Notes: generated from the letters alone by a model not told the origin. A DNA stretch of 42,037 nt from a virus (IMGVR_UViG_3300042691_039155:1-42037); one strand, 5' to 3'; positions 2,391-41,760 are shown, counted from the first letter of the stretch. Numbers and translations are program-made.

Positions 2391-3821
2391 TCAGTAGGCG
2401 AAGGTATTGCCGTGGAGGTTCTTGATCTGAGTCAAGCGGTAGTATTGGTTCAAACCTTGTGTGAGGTTTTCACCGTCTGGTACTGGACCACCGGACGAAG
2501 TGTTAAGAACGTATGGGTTAGCAACTACTCCGTAGCGTGTCTTGAATCCAATTCTTGGTTGGAAAGTGTTTGGATCAACGGCACGGACCATTTGGAGAGG
2601 AACGTATGGGCAGTAGAACAAACCTGCGTCATATGGTGACTCACCCTTATAGCCAGCGCAGAAGAAGTTTACACCGAGTGGTGAATATGGATCGATGTAG
2701 ACACGGATCTTGCCGTTTAGGATACCAGCAAATGTGGATTGGGTATCATCTCCATTGATCTGAGGAGCGATTCCGGGGCTGAGGCTCATGAAGCCAGACA
2801 TGGCTAGAGCAGCAGCTGTATCGCTGTCGCAGATGATGAAGTTTGCCTTACCACGGCGAGTTTCCTTGGCGATTGCGTTGCACTCTCTTTCGATTTGGAA
2901 AGTGAGTCCACGGAATCTTTCAGCAGACCAACGACCGTCTGAGTCGAGGTTTAGATCGTATTCGCCTGTGGCGTTTAGATCGTTTTGCATTGATCCCCTA
3001 CGTGCAACGTAGTAAACTGTTCTTACCAACTCACGGTTGATTTCAGCAAGAATTTCTGTGCTGAGTAGGTTGGCGAGTTCAGCTTCAGCGTCAAGACCGT
3101 GAACGGCCTTGAGATCTTGTGCCAACTCAATCGTGTAATTGCTGGACAGAGCACGTGTACGGGCTTGTACGGCAACACGGTCGATTGAGAAGGCCATCTG
3201 GTTGAATGAACTGTAGAGACCAGTTCCAGATCCGAGACCTTCACCAGAGCTTGTCAACATGCCACGGAAGGCACTGAATTGAGCAGCATTAAGGGTGCGA
3301 ACACGGTTTGGATCCATACCAGCGGGACCGCATGATCCGCAAAGACCGTAACCAGCGGTGAATCCAGCAAAGTTTGCTGGAAGTGTGTATCCTGAACCAC
3401 CGTAGTTTGGTTGTGGCTCTTGGAACATTGCTTCGGCGTATTGCGAAGTATTTCCGTAGTTAAGTCCACCGTAGTTGGCACGCATTGCGAAAATGAGGCC
3501 GGTTGGAGCGGTCATTGGCTGAACGCCGCAGATGTCGTAGGCCATCAAGTTTGGCATTGCACGGCGCACAAGGCTGATGAGGACTGGATCGTAACCAGCG
3601 ACTCCTCCGTTGTTGCTGAAGCTTTGTGGCATTCCGAGGTTGTTAGAGGTCATATCTTCTGTGAGGTGTTGAGCACGCAGAGCTTGCTCTTGGTTCTCTA
3701 GAAGGACGGCTGTGACTTTCTTGCGATAGTCATCTTGGATTTCTGGAAGAGCATCATGAGCGAGAACTGGGCTCCACTTCTCGGTCAAGATGTCGTAAGG
3801 TGTGTTGTCTTGAAAGTTCAT
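2391..3821 (-). CDS. 23: Major capsid protein gp23
   Basis: 476 residues. Strongly T4 gp23-like: LVRRAMPNLMAYDICGVQPM near residues 84-103, SIELAQDLKAVHG-type segment in the middle (here YTIELAQDLKAVHGLDAEAEL), YIDPYSP, GYKGESPYDAG and GFKTRYG near the C terminus. It forms the hexameric shell. T4 gp23 is cleaved by gp21 after Glu65 (FLTE); here the best equivalent is HLTE ending at residue 55. The start has an AGGAG site (3833-3837) and a CTAAATAA late box 28 bases upstream. The gene is visibly richer in G and C at third codon positions than its neighbours, as expected for a very highly expressed gene. Confidence 0.97.
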   Translation of the reverse strand: MNFQDNTPYDILTEKWSPVLAHDALPEIQDDYRKKVTAVLLENQEQALRAQHLTEDMTSNNLGMPQSFSNNGGVAGYDPVLISLVRRAMPNLMAYDICGVQPMTAPTGLIFAMRANYGGLNYGNTSQYAEAMFQEPQPNYGGSGYTLPANFAGFTAGYGLCGSCGPAGMDPNRVRTLNAAQFSAFRGMLTSSGEGLGSGTGLYSSFNQMAFSIDRVAVQARTRALSSNYTIELAQDLKAVHGLDAEAELANLLSTEILAEINRELVRTVYYVARRGSMQNDLNATGEYDLNLDSDGRWSAERFRGLTFQIERECNAIAKETRRGKANFIICDSDTAAALAMSGFMSLSPGIAPQINGDDTQSTFAGILNGKIRVYIDPYSPLGVNFFCAGYKGESPYDAGLFYCPYVPLQMVRAVDPNTFQPRIGFKTRYGVVANPYVLNTSSGGPVPDGENLTQGLNQYYRLTQIKNLHGNTFAY

Positions 3822-3868: not shown

Positions 3869-4927
3869 TTAGAGTTTCTTGTTAAGTTTGCCGATAACAT
3901 TTGCGTAAGACTCAACCGTGCTGTTTTCGGGCTTCGACACGGCTGAGAATGTCATTTCCTCGTTGATCTGTTGTGGTGTTTGACGAACAGGACGAGAAAT
4001 TGTTTGTGAGTTTGTTAGGTAATTTTGTTTAATTGTTACTAATTTTTCACGATATTCTTCTGGAGAACCAAAAGCAACGTTCTCCATCAAAGATTGCAAT
4101 TTAACTACTTGTGTATCTGCAAGATCCTTTGTCTCTGCAACAAAGATTCCAGCACATTCAGTTAGTGCCATTTCCTTGCGAAGATTGATGTTTTCGTTCA
4201 AAGCCTTATTCAGTGTATCTGAAAGTTCTACATTGTGAGAATAAAGTTCATCTAGAGCATTATACTTCTCGGCTGGAACATCAATATAATGATTCTCAAA
4301 GAGGTTCTTTAGCCCTGTGATGAAGTTTTCTGCAATTTGTGTCTTGATGCCTTGTTCGACTGCAACAGCATTTTCTTGCATCCATTCTTCAACAACGTAA
4401 TCTAGGTAGTCATCAACCTTTTCAACCAAGTTACTGGTTACGTTTTCAAGGTAATTTTTGACACCTTCGTCTAGAGAAACGATTGTCTTTGAAACTTCTG
4501 CATTTACTTTTTCTTGTACTGCTGCTTCAAAGATTGCCTCAAGTTGAGTTACAAGATTAGAATCGGCAACTTCTTCACCAAGAAGTTCAACCAATGCATT
4601 TGTGAACTTAACAGTTGCTTCGCTTGTTTCAACTGGTCCTTCTTCCTCTTCCTCTTCCTCTTCTTCTTCCATTGGTTCTTCTTCTGGTTCTTGTTGAGTT
4701 GGAGCGGGAGCAGACATTGGTGCACCACCCATTGGACCACCCATTCCACCAGCCATAGCGGCCATTGTAGTTGGAACTTGGGCTTTAGCATAATTGTTTG
4801 CAGTTACAACAGGCATTGGTATCATGTTACCACGACCATCTGGTGTGAAAGCCACACCATTTGCTGGCATCATTCCACCTTGTTGCATTTCCATTTGTTC
4901 GTTGATTGTATTTTTTGTTCTTTTCAT
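3869..4927 (-). CDS. 22: Prohead core scaffold protein gp22
   Basis: 352 residues, located between gp21 and gp23 as in T4. The protein is acidic and largely helical, with a Met/Gly/Pro-rich N-terminal third, a run of about ten glutamates near residue 90, and a lysine-ending C terminus (GKLNKKL). Several L/I-X-E sites (INE, LTE) fit the known breakdown of gp22 into small peptides by gp21 during head maturation. It forms the core around which gp23 assembles. A TATAAATA box at 4951-4958 and an AAGGAT site precede the ATG. Identification rests on position, composition and length rather than on a strong motif. Confidence 0.85.
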   Translation of the reverse strand: MKRTKNTINEQMEMQQGGMMPANGVAFTPDGRGNMIPMPVVTANNYAKAQVPTTMAAMAGGMGGPMGGAPMSAPAPTQQEPEEEPMEEEEEEEEEEGPVETSEATVKFTNALVELLGEEVADSNLVTQLEAIFEAAVQEKVNAEVSKTIVSLDEGVKNYLENVTSNLVEKVDDYLDYVVEEWMQENAVAVEQGIKTQIAENFITGLKNLFENHYIDVPAEKYNALDELYSHNVELSDTLNKALNENINLRKEMALTECAGIFVAETKDLADTQVVKLQSLMENVAFGSPEEYREKLVTIKQNYLTNSQTISRPVRQTPQQINEEMTFSAVSKPENSTVESYANVIGKLNKKL

Positions 4928-4949: not shown

Positions 4950-5729
4950 TTATTTATAAATTCCTAATTGTTTTCCTTTTTGCAAAAATCCACCAGCAGT
5001 TTCTGCAAAATCAGGAGAAGTTGTATAAGATTGTTTTATGGTATTTGTTGCGCTTTCTGCACCAAATCCTTTAAGAGCCAATGTAAGTGGATTTTCACCA
5101 GCCATTGCCAATTTACCCATTCTTGTTGCGGCATATTGACCCATAGGACCCATTCTATTTGAAGAAATCAAACCAGCCAAATCTGGAACATTTTGAGGAT
5201 CTATGGCTTTTGCCGCTGTGGCTTTAATTTGCGCATAAAAATCTTTTAATCCTGGTGGTATTTTTTGATCTAGATTATATGGCTTCAATTCTTCTTCAAA
5301 CGTTTTTATTGGATCTATGCTTGCTCCCAAATATGTTTTTGCTAGGGCAGTTCTGAGTGCTTGTTTTATTGCATATTCTGCAACAGGTCCTAATGTCTCA
5401 ATTCCACCACCGACTGCAGATCCAACTGCTCTAAGAGCATTGCCAACCATTTGCCCACCTACATAATCTCCAGCCTTTCCAGCAAGTTCCCCCGCACCTC
5501 TAGCCACACCACCAAATCCCCCAGCGGTAATTCCTTCTAGTGCTTTTTCAATTTTTTGTGAATAATTCCACCAAGTCATTTGTTGATATGGATCATACCC
5601 AGATGGTGCTGGTGTTGATTCATATTGGGATTTTGTACGTCTATTTACTTGCATACCCATACCAGAACCACTACCTTCAGTTAAAAAGGTAGATATGACA
5701 TTTCTAGTGTATGGATCAAATGTATTCAT
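4950..5729 (-). CDS. Gly/Ala-rich protein of the prohead cluster, with N-terminal gp21-type site
   Basis: 259 residues from the ATG at 5729, which overlaps the gp21 stop (TGATG). Not recognised as a named T4 protein. Near the N terminus FLTEGS (LTE at residues 16-18, then Gly) is a good gp21 cleavage motif, which would leave a short targeting peptide. Residues about 68-125 are rich in Gly/Ala with amphipathic helix character (AGGFGGVARGAGELAG and onward), recalling membrane-active or core proteins. Its place between gp21 and gp22 argues for an internal head or core component. An upstream TTG is less likely as start. Confidence 0.7.
   Translation of the reverse strand: MNTFDPYTRNVISTFLTEGSGSGMGMQVNRRTKSQYESTPAPSGYDPYQQMTWWNYSQKIEKALEGITAGGFGGVARGAGELAGKAGDYVGGQMVGNALRAVGSAVGGGIETLGPVAEYAIKQALRTALAKTYLGASIDPIKTFEEELKPYNLDQKIPPGLKDFYAQIKATAAKAIDPQNVPDLAGLISSNRMGPMGQYAATRMGKLAMAGENPLTLALKGFGAESATNTIKQSYTTSPDFAETAGGFLQKGKQLGIYK
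4951..4958 (-). promoter_or_regulatory. Late promoter box for gp22
   Basis: Exact T4 late consensus TATAAATA on the minus strand, 23 bases before the gp22 ATG, overlapping the end of the upstream gene. It gives gp22 and gp23 a separate boost from the rest of the head operon. Confidence 0.65.
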
Positions 5730-6373
5730 CAAATATCCTTGAAATATCTATCAAAAACTTTTATTATATTTTTTTGTAAGTTTCTTTTTGATGATGTTTG
5801 AATTAATTTTTTTGCTCTGCTCAATTCTCTCTCTTGCCACATTCCACTTTCATAAATCCATTCACGACCTTCCATGATTCCATTTACAAAAGCATTCGGG
5901 GCAGAAGGATCTGCGACAATGTCGATGGCAGCGAGCATGAAGTCCTCTTGAACTTCTTGGTATCCATTCTTTGCCTTTAAAGAACCCATACCACGGGTAG
6001 AAACACCCAATTGAGCACCCTCTTCAATGAGATTCTTTACAATTTTGCCCATTGGAGTATCCATGACCTTTGCTTTGCCATAGATGTTTTTGCCATCTTC
6101 ATAAAGTTCTTTTACAATATGTGAAACACGATCAAGATTCACGGTTGGCCCCGTGGGGTGATTGAGTTCACCTAATGCTCTACCTTTGTTAACATATTCG
6201 TTGATGTAACGAGATGCCTCTTTTGCAAGAATGTTCTTTGGGTAGATTCTTCCATTCTTGTTCTTTACATCAGATTGCATGAATACACCTTCAATGAAGT
6301 AATTTTTGTCTCCATTGCCAACATTTTCTTTTATGTATTTGATGTCTTCTGTTAGTTCCGTGATTAGTTTCAT
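5729..6373 (-). CDS. 21: Prohead maturation protease gp21
   Basis: 214 residues. T4 gp21-type serine protease with herpesvirus-protease fold: the catalytic His is in GELNHP (H72) and the Ser in GVSTRGMGS (S125). Other family landmarks are NGRIYPK near residue 40 and VADPSAPNAFVNG near residue 155. It assembles in the prohead core, cleaves gp22, gp23 and internal proteins after L/I-X-E, and then digests itself. The coding region overlaps the downstream Gly-rich gene by TGATG. The Shine-Dalgarno site is poor, so translation is probably coupled to the upstream genes. Confidence 0.95.
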   Translation of the reverse strand: MKLITELTEDIKYIKENVGNGDKNYFIEGVFMQSDVKNKNGRIYPKNILAKEASRYINEYVNKGRALGELNHPTGPTVNLDRVSHIVKELYEDGKNIYGKAKVMDTPMGKIVKNLIEEGAQLGVSTRGMGSLKAKNGYQEVQEDFMLAAIDIVADPSAPNAFVNGIMEGREWIYESGMWQERELSRAKKLIQTSSKRNLQKNIIKVFDRYFKDI

Positions 6374-6386
6374 TTGTTTTCTTTCT

Positions 6387-6962
6387 TTATGTTGGTTGAT
6401 CTAACCATCTTTTTGGAAGTGGTTGTTGCTCTTCTTTTTGTTTAAACTGCTTCCAGCTTGGTATTTTCATTGGTTTTGGTCTATTTTCTATTGTATTGTT
6501 GCGCCTTCTCCATTGATATTCTCTATCCCATTGCTGCAACAAATCGACCATTTGTTTATAATATTCTTTTAACCATTCCGTCCATTCTTCTCGACTATCA
6601 AAATCTTCCTTTTTTCTGTGATACTGCTTCACAAATTCATCCAAGGTCATACCTTGTTCACCATTAGGACCTCTAGGAATGGGTGGCCCATCACCAGATA
6701 TTGGGGGTCCGGGTGGAAGGCCCAGTGGATCGTCTACCGTCATAGCACTTTCTGGACTAGCTGCAGCACTGACATTAGACGATATCATTGTTGCTTCTTC
6801 AGTTAATTTTTTTTTTAAAAAAGTGTTTTTTGCAATATTTTTATATTCTTCTTTTAATCTATCAGAGACTTTTTGATATAAAGCATTTGCTGTAGAATTT
6901 TTAAATCCAACAGCATTTTCCTCAACAACATTCTTAATCATTACTTTTACTTTATCTTTCAT
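6387..6962 (-). CDS. Small prohead core protein, gp67/gp68-like, proline-rich
   Basis: 191 residues. The N-terminal 55 residues follow the pattern of T4-type small core proteins: a helix with FK, ALYQKVSDRL and KNIAKNTF, then KKLTEE, whose LTE (residues 53-55) is a gp21 site. After it comes a proline-rich linker (LGLPPGPPISGDGPP) and a Trp/Lys/Gln-rich C terminus. It occupies the slot between portal gp20 and gp21 where T4 has genes 67 and 68. It overlaps the upstream gene by four bases. Assignment to gp67 or gp68 is by position and N-terminal pattern; no residue-level certainty. Confidence 0.6.
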   Translation of the reverse strand: MKDKVKVMIKNVVEENAVGFKNSTANALYQKVSDRLKEEYKNIAKNTFLKKKLTEEATMISSNVSAAASPESAMTVDDPLGLPPGPPISGDGPPIPRGPNGEQGMTLDEFVKQYHRKKEDFDSREEWTEWLKEYYKQMVDLLQQWDREYQWRRRNNTIENRPKPMKIPSWKQFKQKEEQQPLPKRWLDQPT

Positions 6963-7384
6963 TGGATTATCCTTTTTGCATTCTCATAAAAATTTAAAGT
7001 GTTCTTAAATTTTGCACTGTTTTCCAAAAGTTCTTTTGCCATGAGTTTTCTGTTTTTTGGATTTAGTGCATTGAACATTGTTTTTAATTTATTTACGTCT
7101 TGTTCTTGAATATTTATGCTAATATTATTTTTTAGTGTTAAAGAAAAATTTGTTTTTGGATTGTAATTTTCAAAAAATTCTATTAATTTTTTAACATCAT
7201 CATTTAATTCAGTTTTTTCTTCTGTAAATAAAATATTTGATGTTGTGGACTTATTTACTTCTTTTAAAGCCTCGTTGAGTTTGAAAGACAATGAGTTGAC
7301 AAGGCTTTTCTTAAAAGCCTCATCATTTTCATATACCAAAGAATTTAAACCACTTTTTAGTATAATTTCGGATAGATCATTCAT
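6959..7384 (-). CDS. Small prohead core protein, gp67/gp68-like
   Basis: 141 residues, lysine- and asparagine-rich. Residues 23-55 (AFKKSLVNSLSFKLNEAL, then ILFTEE) repeat the helix-plus-cleavage-site layout of its downstream neighbour, suggesting the two are distant paralogues. T4 gp67 and gp68 line the prohead core and are cut by gp21. It is translationally coupled on both sides (ATGA overlap with gp20, four-base overlap with the next gene). The identity is inferred from position and the shared N-terminal pattern. Confidence 0.6.
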   Translation of the reverse strand: MNDLSEIILKSGLNSLVYENDEAFKKSLVNSLSFKLNEALKEVNKSTTSNILFTEEKTELNDDVKKLIEFFENYNPKTNFSLTLKNNISINIQEQDVNKLKTMFNALNPKNRKLMAKELLENSAKFKNTLNFYENAKRIIQ

Positions 7385-35100: not shown

Positions 35101-36057
35101 ATGAAAACATTCAAACAATTTTTGTTGCTCCAAGAAACATTGCTTCACCCACCAGAAGGTTTTGAATATGTTTCACCACCACAAAGAAAAAGAAAATCTG
35201 ACGAACCAATTCAACAAACTGAACCAGTTGAACCAAAAAAAGCAGATGGAATGTACACAACTACCGCAAGAGAAGCCTTGACAAGAAGAATTGGTACTCC
35301 AGAAGAAACAAACAAATATATAGAGGATACAAGACAAAGAAGAAAAACTCATCCGTTGCAAAGTTCTTGGATTTTGCCATCTTTGGAGGATGAACATTTA
35401 GATAGACCGATGTACGTAAAGGTTGGTCCAGTAGAAAACCATCCTCTTTCAAGAGCAAGTGGATATTACACCCCACAGGGAAACCAAGAAGGCAATGTTA
35501 TTACAGATGCTAGTGGTTGGGCTACAAAGAATAACCCAATAAACATAAATTCAAACGAATTTATTTCAAAAACATTTCCTTATAATCAAAGTTTACAACA
35601 AATTTCAAGTGAATTGACAACAGGAAAAATTCCAAAAGTCGATAAACCTTTTAGTGATACATTGTGGCACGAAATGCAACACGTTTTACAAAACCCAACA
35701 CATTTAGGAAGAAATACAAGCCAACTTGATGCAAATGCAGGATTTTTGCTAGAGCCAAAAAGCGCTGATCCGATGACACAAAAAAGTCAAAGATATGTAA
35801 CATCTCCAGTGGAGATGGCAGCACACGCAAGCGCTGCAAAAAGTCAGTTTAGACAACAAACTGGTATTAATCTTGGACCAAATATGTCTCAAGAAGAATT
35901 TACAAAGTTTAAAGATTTTATAAAAAGCCTTGAACAAAGTTCAAGCATGAAAACTTTTTATGACATATTGACAAATCCAAAAACGACAAAGGATGCTGAA
36001 GAATTGTTAAGACAGGTTGTACAAAAAACCAAGTCTTCCGATTTTGGATATGCTTGA
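35101..36057 (+). CDS. HExxH metallopeptidase-like protein with capsid-targeting-like N terminus
   Basis: 318 residues. The start MKTFKQFLLLQE closely resembles the capsid targeting sequence of T4 internal proteins (MKTYQEFIAE), and LQE would be a gp21 cut site. A basic/acidic low-complexity linker follows (residues 25-60). TLWHEMQHVLQ gives H190, E191, H194, a zinc metallopeptidase motif, with a conserved Gln as in some toxins and phage proteins. The C terminus (MAAHASAAKS) might supply the third ligand. It is inferred to be packaged in the head and delivered with the DNA. No Shine-Dalgarno site. Confidence 0.65.
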   Translation: MKTFKQFLLLQETLLHPPEGFEYVSPPQRKRKSDEPIQQTEPVEPKKADGMYTTTAREALTRRIGTPEETNKYIEDTRQRRKTHPLQSSWILPSLEDEHLDRPMYVKVGPVENHPLSRASGYYTPQGNQEGNVITDASGWATKNNPININSNEFISKTFPYNQSLQQISSELTTGKIPKVDKPFSDTLWHEMQHVLQNPTHLGRNTSQLDANAGFLLEPKSADPMTQKSQRYVTSPVEMAAHASAAKSQFRQQTGINLGPNMSQEEFTKFKDFIKSLEQSSSMKTFYDILTNPKTTKDAEELLRQVVQKTKSSDFGYA

Positions 36058-37867: not shown

Positions 37868-37881
37868 TATTTATCTAAATA
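37868..37881. promoter_or_regulatory. Bidirectional palindromic late promoter
   Basis: TATTTATCTAAATA. Minus box (37873-37868) is five bases from the ATG at 37862; plus box (37876-37881) is five bases from the ATG at 37887. The same 14-mer is repeated at 39788-39801. Confidence 0.6.
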
Positions 37882-37886
37882 ATTTC

Positions 37887-38666
37887 ATGGATTATCTGAC
37901 TAACTACTACAAGAATCTTTGCGAGCAACTTCAAGAAAAAATTGAACTTCTTGAGGCAAAAGCCAAAAAGAAGAAAAAGAAGATGGCAAAAAAGGACTAT
38001 GATAAGGATGGCAAACTAGAAACATCCGAACAAGAATACCTTGGATCAAGAGACAACGCCATCAAGAAGGCAATGCAATCAGAAAGTTTCAACAGACCAT
38101 TTGGAATGAGACCAATGCCAGCAGGCCCGGTTACTTCAGAATATGCGGATTCGGTCACAGATCCACCACCAAACGTGGCTACCATGACCACCGCTCAGGA
38201 GAGAGCCGCAAGAGATCAAGCAAGAGTCAGACCCATTGATACCTTTGGTGGACAATATCCAAGCCCAGAATTTGGTGATTTAGCTCGCTCTGCGGATTCT
38301 GCAAGACGGGCAGCATATCCTCTTGAAGGAAAGTTGAGAGAAGCAGAAATAGAAGCCCAAAGACAACATATGCGAACCACCAAGTACCGTGGCAGACCTG
38401 TAAGCCAGATGAGTCCCGGTAGCAAGGCATATCAGGCTGCTATGAGTGGTTTCAGAACAGGATATCAACCACCAGAAGATCTTGCAGCACAACTTAGAGG
38501 AAGCCAAATTCTTTCAAAATTGTCTCAAAGAATTTTACAAACACATCCACAATATGATCAGTTTGTTCAAGACGAAGAACTTCGTGGGGACATAATCATG
38601 GGCAGAAAAAATTCAGATGGAACCTGGAGACAATCATATCTGAGAGACAGATACACCGGAGATTAA
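37887..38666 (+). CDS. Putative internal head protein, shared N-terminal module (member A)
   Basis: 259 residues. The start MDYLTNYYKNLCEQLQEK is shared with three other proteins in this window. ELLEAK at residues 20-25 gives a gp21-type cut site (L-L-E, then Ala24). Then comes a lysine block (AKKKKKK), an EF-hand-like DYDKDGKLETSEQEY (residues about 38-52, Asp at 1, 3 and 5 of the loop and Glu at 12), and an Arg/Gln/Pro-rich C-terminal part. The function of the mature protein is unknown; head localisation is inferred from the N terminus. Confidence 0.7.
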   Translation: MDYLTNYYKNLCEQLQEKIELLEAKAKKKKKKMAKKDYDKDGKLETSEQEYLGSRDNAIKKAMQSESFNRPFGMRPMPAGPVTSEYADSVTDPPPNVATMTTAQERAARDQARVRPIDTFGGQYPSPEFGDLARSADSARRAAYPLEGKLREAEIEAQRQHMRTTKYRGRPVSQMSPGSKAYQAAMSGFRTGYQPPEDLAAQLRGSQILSKLSQRILQTHPQYDQFVQDEELRGDIIMGRKNSDGTWRQSYLRDRYTGD

Positions 38667-38669
38667 ATA
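38664..38669 (+). promoter_or_regulatory. Late promoter box, leaderless spacing (member B)
   Basis: TAAATA overlaps the TAA stop of member A, with AAATT before the ATG at 38675. Confidence 0.45.
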
Positions 38670-38674
38670 AAATT

Positions 38675-39538
38675 ATGAACTACCTAACAAACTATTACAA
38701 GAATCTTTGTGAGCAACTTCAAGAACAAATTAATCTTCTGGAGGCCAGAATAAATCGCCCAACACACACTGTGCTCGGAGATACCTTCCGAAACGATCAA
38801 GAGATGGATCGCAGAGTCGGACAAAGAATGGATGTCATGTCCGATCTTGATCTTCTTGCCAATTTTGAAGAAGCAGATGAGCCAACAAGAAATGCTGCTA
38901 AAAATGTTTTAAAAGACATGAAAGATACAAATCAAATGGCTGGAAGAGTTGGAACCAATGCAACAACTGGAGATCTTCGTGCAGCCATGGGTGGTTTGAA
39001 GAAACACGCTCAATCATCTTCTTTCCAAACCCAAAGAGGAAAAAGACTTTCAGGAATGGAAGATCGTGGATTTAAATTTACACCAGCAGTAAACGATTGG
39101 GTCGGGGGAAACCGTTATATGGATACCCAAAGAGGTGAAGGATTTGATACCGTTTCCGATATTCTTGGAGACATTGAAGATTATGATACCTCCCGTCCAG
39201 TTACCAGAAAATTCAAAAGAGATGTTGCTTTGGGTCTCGGTCGAGCCATGAACCCAACAGGTGTTAGCAGAATGCAAGTTGACACACAAAATGTGGCAAG
39301 AGCCAATGCCTCAGACCCAAGAGGATATTCAGTAACTCAAGAACCAGTCATGGGAATGAAAGTCGAACCATCAACAGGAAGTCCAAGCGAATTCAATCGT
39401 AGATTGGGTGAACCAGAAGTTGCTGAAAAATTGAAAATGATCGCTCCTTGGATCAACGTAAATGCATCAGAAGTACAAAAAAGATTCCCCAGTTATTATG
39501 AATCAGGAGTTTTGGGAAGATACTGGACAGGACGATAA
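38675..39538 (+). CDS. Putative internal head protein, shared N-terminal module (member B)
   Basis: 287 residues. MNYLTNYYKNLCEQLQEQ and NLLEARINR repeat the module of member A almost exactly through Ala24. The rest of the protein has no resemblance to A: mostly helical, Arg/Met/Gly-rich, with LADFE-like acidic helices and the terminal segment YESGVLGRYWTGR. The module plus the L-L-E/A site suggests packaging into the head and cleavage by gp21. It starts eight bases after member A and ends before a terminator. Confidence 0.7.
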   Translation: MNYLTNYYKNLCEQLQEQINLLEARINRPTHTVLGDTFRNDQEMDRRVGQRMDVMSDLDLLANFEEADEPTRNAAKNVLKDMKDTNQMAGRVGTNATTGDLRAAMGGLKKHAQSSSFQTQRGKRLSGMEDRGFKFTPAVNDWVGGNRYMDTQRGEGFDTVSDILGDIEDYDTSRPVTRKFKRDVALGLGRAMNPTGVSRMQVDTQNVARANASDPRGYSVTQEPVMGMKVEPSTGSPSEFNRRLGEPEVAEKLKMIAPWINVNASEVQKRFPSYYESGVLGRYWTGR

Positions 39539-39553
39539 TAAAAGTGCTCATAG

Positions 39554-39587
39554 AAAAAACCGGACCCCTGAAAAGGTCCGGTTTTTT
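39554..39587. terminator. Bidirectional Rho-independent terminator
   Basis: 13-bp stem AAAAAACCGGACC/GGTCCGGTTTTTT with loop CCTGAAAA. A T tract is present on both strands, serving members A/B (plus) and the small membrane protein gene (minus). Confidence 0.93.
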
Positions 39588-39606
39588 CGTTTTTAAGCAA
39601 AGCCGT

Positions 39607-39771
39607 TTATTTGGCTTCTACGGCCTTCTTGGTGCACTCGCATGCTGGGGCTCCCTTGTGCTTGGGACCCTTCCCAAGGTCAAGGAGGTTGGTTGCGAGG
39701 ACAAACACGCAGAGACCGAAGACAAACCAATGAACATTATCCTTCACGAACTTTGAAAATTTTGTAAGCAT
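39607..39771 (-). CDS. Small single-pass membrane protein
   Basis: 54 residues, ATG at 39771 with AAAGGAAA six bases upstream. The start is MLTKFSKFVKDN; the hydrophobic segment WFVFGLCVFVLATNLL (about residues 15-30) is a likely transmembrane helix; the tail is basic with ACECTKK. Coding is supported by the ribosome binding site, the GATAAATA box and a terminator just after the stop. It could be a holin-like, spanin-like or host-envelope factor, but one helix of this kind is not diagnostic. Confidence 0.75.
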   Translation of the reverse strand: MLTKFSKFVKDNVHWFVFGLCVFVLATNLLDLGKGPKHKGAPACECTKKAVEAK

Positions 39772-39787
39772 AAGTTTCCTTTCACTA

Positions 39788-39801
39788 TATTTATCTAAAT
39801 A
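39788..39801. promoter_or_regulatory. Bidirectional palindromic late promoter (second copy)
   Basis: TATTTATCTAAATA, identical to 37868-37881. The minus box serves 39771 with a 12-base leader carrying AAAGGAAA; the plus box is eight bases from the ATG at 39810. Confidence 0.6.
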
Positions 39802-39809
39802 TTCATGCC

Positions 39810-40103
39810 ATGAAGAGATTTAAAGAATTTTTGGAAGAACAAAAAGTCAAGGTTCCTGGATCGGAAATTGAAGAAGTGGATGTAGTTCCCACTCCACAGG
39901 AATCGGAGCAAAAGAACGAGCAAAATTGGTCAAAGGTAGTGAAAGAGGTCAAGAAGACCGTAAAGGCTCCATCCTATGCGAGCATAAAGAAATTCACACA
40001 GGGTGACAAGGAATCCTCAAGGGGTGCAATCGAACTTGATCTGACTCCAAAGCCAAAGATTGAGGCACCGTTGCCTCAATCTCAGACATCAACTGAAATT
40101 TGA
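39810..40103 (+). CDS. Putative small internal head protein, T4-type targeting N terminus
   Basis: 97 residues. MKRFKEFLEEQ resembles the T4 internal protein leader (MKTYQEFIAE); LEE/Q is a possible cut. The rest is highly charged and probably disordered (Lys, Glu, Val, Pro), with the segment PSYASIKKFTQGDKESS, similar in character to T4 IP proteins, which are small, basic and packaged with DNA. It converges with the next minus-strand gene with one base between stops. Confidence 0.6.
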   Translation: MKRFKEFLEEQKVKVPGSEIEEVDVVPTPQESEQKNEQNWSKVVKEVKKTVKAPSYASIKKFTQGDKESSRGAIELDLTPKPKIEAPLPQSQTSTEI

Positions 40104-40104
40104 T

Positions 40105-41196
40105 TTAAGCCTTTAGTTTGCCTCTGCGAATCAGTTCTGCTTTTGCAGCACGGTATTCGATTGGTTGTTTTTCGTCCGGAATTGCTGGACCGAAAGCGTT
40201 GCTTCTCTTGGCAGTGCGCATCATGTTCTGCAACTCAAGATCGCCGTAGCGTGGCTTGCCTGCCCAGAACTTGGAGAAGTCCTCTCCTTGTTGTGCTGGG
40301 GCGGGGGCTGCTGAATTTGGTGAAAATTCAGGCTTTGGCTTGTTTGGCTTTTGGTAGCCGGGAACAACCGTGTTCTGTGGAATGACGACCTTGGCGGCTG
40401 GTGTGGCAAGAGGAGCCCTGGCAGCGGGAAGAACCTGATTCTGAACAGCATTTCTGTTTGGATCGATGCTGATTTCACCTGGCTTCACTGCTGCCCCGAT
40501 TGCTGGATTTCTTGGTGATGAGACGGAAGTGTTTGTTGGTGCGTACTTGGCAGCGGATGGTGGAACCGCAAACAGAGAGTTTGGAATCCATGCTGGTGGA
40601 GGGGTTGGCGATGACGCTGGGGCTGGTGAGGGAGCAGCGGGAGCTGGCGCTGGGACATTTGCTGCCAGCGAAGCTGCACCAGCGGCCTTCTCTGCTGCAA
40701 CATCTGCCTGATATTGGCCTGTTCCCATGGCTCTCTGCTCAAGGTCTTTTCTTGCTTGTTCAGTATCCTCTGCGGGTTTGACGGCAGAAAGTCTTGAACC
40801 TTCAGGTCCACTCAACGTGGTTGGATTGATTGTGTATTGAGTTGCGGTTCCGGGAACGCTGAAAGCACGGCTGACCATATCTGTTGAAAGTGGGGCTGCT
40901 GCTTGTCTTGCTGGAACTTGACTTTGGGTGGAATTGGAATCAAACTTGCTTTGAAGATAACCGGAACTGTCAACCTGGTAGCTGCCACCAGCCTCTCCAG
41001 ATCTTGCGGCAAACTCCTGTTGGGCATCACCCTTATAATTTTTTCTGGCAGTGGGAGTCCTTGAACTCACTGTATATGTTGATGGATATGCACCAGTCAT
41101 TGCCTCATCGATCATTCTCAATTTGTTTTCTAGTGCAATTACTTTTTCGTATAAATCTTCTGCACGGTTCTTGTAGAATTTTGTTATGTAGTCCAT
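40105..41196 (-). CDS. Putative internal head protein, shared N-terminal module (member C)
   Basis: 363 residues. MDYITKFYKNRAEDLYEK and VIALENKL align with members A and B (MDYLTNYYKN..); ALE/N24 or IDE/A32 could be cut by gp21. The long Ala/Pro/Ser-rich middle (residues about 170-320, for example PAPAPAAPSPAPASSP) must be extended or disordered. The C-terminal 60 residues are more ordered (FWAGKPRYGDLELQNMM). The gene is more GC-rich than its neighbours. TAAATA lies five bases before the ATG at 41196. Confidence 0.7.
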   Translation of the reverse strand: MDYITKFYKNRAEDLYEKVIALENKLRMIDEAMTGAYPSTYTVSSRTPTARKNYKGDAQQEFAARSGEAGGSYQVDSSGYLQSKFDSNSTQSQVPARQAAAPLSTDMVSRAFSVPGTATQYTINPTTLSGPEGSRLSAVKPAEDTEQARKDLEQRAMGTGQYQADVAAEKAAGAASLAANVPAPAPAAPSPAPASSPTPPPAWIPNSLFAVPPSAAKYAPTNTSVSSPRNPAIGAAVKPGEISIDPNRNAVQNQVLPAARAPLATPAAKVVIPQNTVVPGYQKPNKPKPEFSPNSAAPAPAQQGEDFSKFWAGKPRYGDLELQNMMRTAKRSNAFGPAIPDEKQPIEYRAAKAELIRRGKLKA

Positions 41197-41201
41197 GGAA
41201 T

Positions 41202-41207
41202 TATTTA
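41202..41207 (-). promoter_or_regulatory. Late promoter box, leaderless spacing (member C)
   Basis: TTTATAAATAATTCC precedes the ATG at 41196, with five bases between TAAATA and the start codon. Confidence 0.5.
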
Positions 41208-41217
41208 TAAAGTATTT

Positions 41218-41760
41218 TCACTCAAAAGAACTCATAAAACCTGAACCAGAACTTTTTCTGTGACCCAATCCACTTCTTGGGTACAAACTTATACCAGCAT
41301 TTTTTCTTCTTAAATCAACAGAATCATCGTTCGAATATGTTCCAAAAATACCACCTCCAATTTTATTCACATCAATTGATTTTTTCGGAGTTTCTGTACT
41401 TGATTTTTCCGGAGTCGTTGGGTCCCCAATACGAACAACTCTACGACCACCTCGTCCACCAACCATTCGTGATCTTTTAAGAGCCATGTTTCTTGCAGCA
41501 TTTGCTGCCTTCCATTCACGGTAATTTCCATTTTTCCCGGTTCTCAACGGAGGAACCTTTATTGCAAAAGCCTGGTCCTCATCGTAAATGTGTTTAGTAT
41601 CATCAATCCATTTGTCTTCTATACTCTTTGGTTGCTCGGGTTCTTCTATAGATCCATCATCTTCTTCTTCAGAAAATTCATTTAAAATTTGCTGAATAGA
41701 AAGAATTTTTTCTTCCAATTCTTCGCAGAGATTTTTGTAGTAATTGGCGAGGTAGTTCAC
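41218..41760 (-). CDS. Putative internal head protein, shared N-terminal module (member D)
   Basis: 180 residues, GTG start at 41760, fixed by alignment: MNYLANYYKNLCEELEEK matches members A-C. Candidate cut site LNE/F (residues 26-28). The rest is acidic near residues 30-45 and then basic with Arg/Lys/Gly (KRSRMVGGRGGRRVVRIG), which could bind DNA. CATAAATA lies five bases before the GTG. It is transcribed toward member C, whose own box lies just downstream of this gene's stop. Confidence 0.7.
   Translation of the reverse strand: MNYLANYYKNLCEELEEKILSIQQILNEFSEEEDDGSIEEPEQPKSIEDKWIDDTKHIYDEDQAFAIKVPPLRTGKNGNYREWKAANAARNMALKRSRMVGGRGGRRVVRIGDPTTPEKSSTETPKKSIDVNKIGGGIFGTYSNDDSVDLRRKNAGISLYPRSGLGHRKSSGSGFMSSFE

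Follow-up and report, generated by a model that had tools for sequence, protein, structure and literature searches.

A short N-terminal module with the consensus M(N/D)YLTNYYKNLSEQLQEKVxxLExxLNE, designated class Y, is very probably a cleavable prohead-targeting leader and the functional equivalent of the T4 capsid targeting sequence (CTS); packaging and cleavage are inferred, without direct evidence of either. An earlier note on this DNA had read the arrangement as a capsid targeting sequence fused to varied cargo, and this reading was upheld by the 62 cargo families found behind the module, by a positioned and nearly exclusive cut motif, by cargo starting at the cut site, and by natural swaps with T4-type leaders in three families.

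Four proteins with a common start in a T4-like virus

The window, that is, the whole stretch of DNA analyzed (42,037 nucleotides), was a 42 kb IMG/VR fragment of a T4-like myovirus carrying homologues of gp21, gp23 and tail genes. Its gp23 and gp21 were 53% and about 57% identical, respectively, to their marine cyanomyovirus counterparts, and psbA, as a pointer to a cyanobacterial host, was found in none of 15 contigs. Candidates for scaffold and core proteins are encoded in the window at 3869-4927, 4950-5732, 6387-6962 and 6959-7384. The features are listed below, with a slash marking the predicted cut site and P1 the residue before it.

37887..37955, +: leader of protein A, class Y, residues 1-23, MDYLTNYYKNLCEQLQEKIELLE/A; profile 52.7 bits, LLE-23
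37956..38666, +: cargo of A, K-rich/EF-hand-like insert followed by a helical domain, with homologues in other contigs that follow Y or D leaders (alignment of homologues and AF2)
38675..38743, +: leader of protein B, class Y, residues 1-23, ...INLLE/A; profile 52.8 bits
38744..39538, +: cargo of B, INRPTHT...; family common to L057, L139, L023 and L007 (alignment)
41104..41196, -: leader of protein C, class Y, residues 1-31, ...KLRMIDE/A; profile 38.1 bits, IDE-31
40105..41103, -: cargo of C, Pro/Ala-rich; C-terminal ~50 residues similar to the N-terminal cargo of L037/L133/L011 proteins
41677..41760, -: leader of protein D, class Y, GTG start, residues 1-28, ...QQILNE/F; profile 33.9 bits, LNE-28
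41218..41676, -: cargo of D, acidic then basic; singleton in cargo clustering
35101..36057, +: protein with a T4-type leader, MKTFKQFLLLQE/T, and an HExxH stretch (WHEMQH, WHEMQHVLQ); possible metallopeptidase cargo
39810..40103, +: protein with a T4-type leader, MKRFKEFLEE/Q, P1 = 10 like T4 IPIII
5729..6373, -: gp21-type prohead protease, Peptidase_S77, proposed processing enzyme (Pfam 2.2e-40; PHROG head maturation protease 9e-80)
2391..3821, -: gp23-type major capsid protein (53% identity to cyanomyovirus gp23)
37876..37881, +: late-promoter-like TAAATA, ending 5 nt before the ATG of A

The four open reading frames reported earlier were recovered at 37887-38666 (A, +), 38675-39538 (B, +), 41196-40105 (C, -) and 41760-41218 (D, -), with the correction that the start codon of D is GTG. 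Their common start, M(D/N)Y(L/I)xxxYKNxxExLxEK, was confirmed at the DNA level, where the pattern RTGRAYTAYHTN7TWYTAYAARAAY occurred exactly four times in the window and was expected zero times from 100 shuffles. When the full proteins were compared pairwise by BLASTP, the alignments ran from residue 1 only as far as about residue 27-56 (E 4e-11 to 3e-4), and for the four as a set the similarity ends at residue ~35. The claimed divergence beyond the module also held, since no significant pair remained among A-D after the first 31 residues were cut off (best E 0.015, A vs C). Full-length homology being absent, an origin of A-D by gene duplication was rejected.

The boundary proposed for A and B, LLE-23/A, was found in both, and the LNE proposed for D was placed at LNE-28/F. 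Two boundaries had been offered for C; IDE-31/A fits the gp21 motif [LI]xE and 'ALE' does not. The description of A and B as unrelated was only partly sustained: they have no direct similarity, but a homologue (L057:3736+) fuses the K-rich/EF-hand-like segment of A to the cargo of B, so the cargo itself is mosaic. No homologue of the D cargo was found among the module proteins by BLASTP cargo clustering, nothing significant was obtained for A-D against Pfam and PHROGs, and tblastn of protein A against INPHARED gave no informative match.

The class Y leader and its predicted cut site

A degenerate pattern of the first ten codons was scanned over IMG/VR, and about 15 short chance ORFs were dropped on length and profile score. 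Matches were present in 109 IMG/VR stretches, many of which had two to five copies; the translated ORFs began MNYLTNYYKNLSEQLQEKVNHLExxLNEA, and their remainders differed. A profile search for the module in T4-like phages had been proposed in the earlier note; run here with a profile of 24 columns, it yielded 163 non-redundant class Y proteins in IMG/VR contigs, two to seven of them in each of five large contigs. Their cargo fell into 62 families by BLASTP clustering, a level at which deeper searches may merge some, and the suggestion that the tag is reused on new genes was thus substantiated. The distribution of the cargo was patchy between related contigs. As had also been claimed, the leader does not resemble those of T4 ipI, ipII and ipIII; the consensus Y leader gave no informative tblastn match among INPHARED isolates.

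The motif [LI]xE with P1 at residues 21-40 was present in 159 of the 163 proteins and in 60 of the 62 families (1000 shuffles: mean 23.6 families, maximum 35). Its density at P1 21-40 was 1.16, against 0.08 per 21 residues in the remainder of the same proteins, and as a control it occurred at 22-40 in 20% of other ORFs from the same contigs. The position of the site varied (23, 24, 27, 28, 31), the P1' residue was most often Ala, and early and late sites were nearly mutually exclusive (counts 2, 39 and 13, 8; P = 1.8e-6, one protein per family). The module of A-D holds further [LI]xE sites, LCE-13 and LQE/LEE-17, of which C has only LYE-17; hence the motif by itself is not unique to the boundary. 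In addition, the amphipathic Leu/Glu-rich helix partly favors it, the joint frequency being 0.33 against 0.24 expected at position 23 and 0.36 against 0.28 at position 28. Propeptides with more than one cleavage site are known from T4 (gp23 and gp22) and from giant phages (PMC5694885).

The boundary was also examined with homologous cargo standing behind leaders of unequal length, in which homology started at P1' in each protein. Examples are LLE/AGLKKA (P1 23) against LSE/AGLKKALKTG (P1 28) and LNE/GGLKKALKTE, LQE/DAPASTFSGTGQ (P1 31) against LNE/DAPASTFSGTGQ (P1 28), and ILE/ARLNS against INE/ARLKS. Of 11 chosen shifted pairs, nine scored higher in register than at any other of the 17 offsets, and the remaining two did not fit. 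It is supported by these sequence comparisons that the class Y leader ends at a predicted gp21 [LI]xE site, for which the motif is met and cleavage is inferred.

Furthermore, a Peptidase_S77 of the gp21 family was encoded in 16 of 74 module-bearing records and in 15 of the 21 records of at least 50 kb, as well as in the window. Of 157 class Y genes, 88 had a TAAATA whose end lay exactly 5 nt ahead of the start codon, against 86 of 1178 control ORFs; by inference, this placement is consistent with late expression. If TAAATA were a T4-type late promoter, class Y mRNAs would be nearly leaderless.

Exchange of leaders on the same cargo

T4-type leader ORFs (MK[KSTR]FK[QE][FY][LI]xE-like; MKxFKxFLxE) were found in the same contigs, 49 of them distinct, a few of which came from isolate records fetched alongside. 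P1 was residue 10 in 45 of the 49, which the search itself did not demand, and the class matches the start of T4 ipII/ipIII, MKTYQEFIAE/A. Y and T4-type leaders occurred together at 27 loci. Three cargo families stood behind both leaders: GLKKAL (L011:6346-), LDPxFLE (L066:1995-, L087:1906-) and KALLxxxAKMDADxAAR (L028:10662+ vs L077:2621+). The T4-type junctions on this cargo were MKSFIQYLQE/SGLKKALDTGD, MKKFKDYIKE/Q...LDPDFLE and MQSFKQFLLNE/AP...KALLAQMAKMDADKA, and the local alignments of full-length sequences opened at P3 of L-x-E in both proteins of every T4-type/Y pair tested. These alignments of predicted proteins demonstrated that Y and T4-IPIII-like leaders interchange naturally on the same cargo, exactly at the predicted cut site. 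Functional equivalence, in which either leader type would serve the same cargo, is met as far as comparison of sequences can establish it, and no packaging assay was involved.

A third leader, class D (M..F.DHLxFSNN[IL]xDNAxxLK...LxE), was found in about 12 copies (for example L082:4517-, L076:305-, L066:1535-, L107:11386+ and L064:3867-). Behind it stands cargo that class Y leaders also carry, that of window protein A included; the D/Y swap boundaries were not clean in full-length alignment. A cargo-only search of viral contigs for more swaps gave eight loci, mostly on contigs already in the set. In one protein of 434 residues (L025:1631-), the Y leader at the N terminus was accompanied by another, Y-like one in the interior (YYNNLSKQLQERINYLQHILNE/ENSRTVYTAGG), and the cargo of this protein was found directly behind the leader of a class D protein of L086. 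A short C-terminal ending (HVTPSHY, VTPQQY, TGSQQY) was common to Y and T4-type proteins (L053:3525-, L022:274+, L073:2695-, L019:41+ and others) and is perhaps a second signal.

The cargo of class Y was mostly unannotated and hydrophilic (GRAVY -0.96), with much low-complexity sequence. The only named matches of note were EF-hand-like segments, one DUF7178 and a peptidase/endolysin-like C terminus in L089:1256+, and no known anti-defense family was matched in Pfam or PHROGs. A further protein, L079:736+, combined a Y leader with an HExxH stretch similar to that of the window protein at 35101-36057. AF2 predicted for A a long helix and, at cargo residues 140-220, a helical domain (pLDDT about 90), but no known fold was recognized, and the model had no match below E 0.001 in PDB or BFVD. 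For B, a helix at 3-26 followed by low-confidence coil was predicted (mean pLDDT 47).

The nearest virion evidence for the class Y leader is indirect and comes from the cyanophage NMNAT, whose leader is T4-type and not Y. S-SCSM1, a marine cyanophage for which a mass-spectrometric virion proteome exists (PMC9602691), has two ORFs with a T4-type leader; the NMNAT (ORF91) was detected in virions and ORF30 was not. The NMNAT-like proteins of P-SSM2 (PSSM2_194), S-SM2 (SSM2_161) and RN05-S have the same T4-IPIII-like start, MKSFxQFLxE. ORF92 of S-SCSM1, also detected in virions, shares the segment DPVGKEDxDxDNDG with a Y-like protein of G016. In the open-access literature, with subscription papers and preprints outside the scope, no account was found of Y or D leaders, nor of the cyanophage NMNAT start as a CTS.

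Proposed mechanism, alternatives and known systems

Late in infection, the leader would fold into an amphipathic helix, by which the protein docks on the scaffold core within the prohead. At maturation, the gp21-type protease would cut behind the [LI]-x-E glutamate at residue 23-34, a position derived from comparison, the cleavage itself being inferred, and it may cut the leader further at LCE-13 and LQE-17. The freed cargo would remain alongside the DNA in the head until its ejection into the next host, as inferred from the T4 internal proteins, and fusion of the leader to further genes would provide the phages with new payloads. An effector function of the cargo and its delivery with the DNA are both inferred. 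With less assurance, we somewhat favor the wider proposal of a T4-like lineage with an open payload system, in which at least three interchangeable leaders (Y, T4-type and D) load and release dozens of effectors, far above the few internal proteins of T4.

Copying of DNA could have spread the shared start, either as a hot spot of recombination or as a duplicated 5' end of the gene that comprises the late promoter and the first codons, in which case the leader protein would have no function. The conserved TAAATA that many copies have 5 nt ahead of the start would suit such copying, as would the leader DNA of A and B, identical at 60 of 72 positions but at only 24 of 72 just after. Yet codons at identical residues of the Y leader differ in 42% of cases, against 52% expected at saturation, which indicates selection on the protein, the peptide and not the DNA being conserved. 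The 156 distinct leader proteins, moreover, have a mean identity of 57%, and DNA copying leaves unexplained the replacement of the leader by unrelated ones with the same L-x-E end; we consider it scarcely credible. The module might instead be a helix, uncut by gp21, that docks on some other structure of the virion or host (tail, baseplate, membrane), with [LI]xE a by-product of a Leu/Glu-rich amphipathic helix. Its hydrophobic residues at 4, 7/8, 11, 15, 19, 22 and 26 do follow a helical period, and the helices predicted in A and B agree with this. However, a mere helix accounts neither for the near exclusion between early and late sites, nor for cargo that begins exactly at P1' behind leaders of different length, nor for a T4-type CTS taking the place of the Y leader at that very point, and this explanation appears quite improbable, though not to the same degree.

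A more serious alternative, still unlikely, is that the leader targets proteins to the prohead and is removed by gp21, the cargo then serving head assembly as scaffold or core components and not as delivered payload. Targeting and cleavage are common to this alternative and the preferred explanation, and only what becomes of the cargo sets them apart, so that the confidences placed in the two overlap. The low-complexity, hydrophilic and unannotated character of much of the cargo is compatible with core components, and the core proteins of T4 are gp21 substrates too. Against this, the 62 cargo families, unrelated to one another and unevenly distributed among related contigs, are more like T4 internal proteins than a conserved core, and so is the enzyme-like cargo (peptidase/endolysin-like in L089, HExxH in L079 and in the window at 35101). 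The reading as a cleavable prohead-targeting leader with delivered cargo is the one retained here.

With the leader as a search key, one could list from sequence what the heads of many uncultured T4-like phages are predicted to contain, which yields dozens of candidates for injected proteins, their functions unknown. The question of how one prohead core recognizes two or more unrelated address tags also becomes testable, and a second tag becomes available for putting proteins into phage heads. In addition, the T4-type start of NMNAT suggests why a NAD-making enzyme occurs in cyanophage particles.

In T4, ten residues are enough for targeting, prohead cleavage follows, and the internal proteins have only the leader in common (PMC9026906, PMC12373910). 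The CTS of IPI, IPII and IPIII, like class Y, is a short N-terminal leader on unrelated proteins that ends at a gp21 [LI]xE site (PMC9026906, PMC12373910), and class Y phages, like T4, encode an S77 protease and have the T4-type leader in the same contigs, swapping with Y on the same cargo. In contrast to the ten-residue MKTYQEFIAE, the Y leader has 23-34 residues with the consensus YYKN...LQE and many more cargo families. The inner head propeptides of phiKZ and SPN3US likewise involve a gp21-related prohead protease and several cleavage sites, but they are mostly 80-127 residues long (20 in SPN3US gp45), with other protease motifs (PMC5694885), and no sequence shared with the Y leader was seen, although without a profile test. 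The cyanophage NMNAT/cytidyltransferase (T4-GC190) is a virion enzyme detected by mass spectrometry with the start MKSFLQFLKE/A (PMC9602691, PMC3037559), and its PHROG profile also holds the DPVGKEDxDxDNDG segment present in some Y-leader proteins; it differs from class Y in its T4-type leader. The leader system is a variant within the known kind represented by the T4 CTS and internal proteins.
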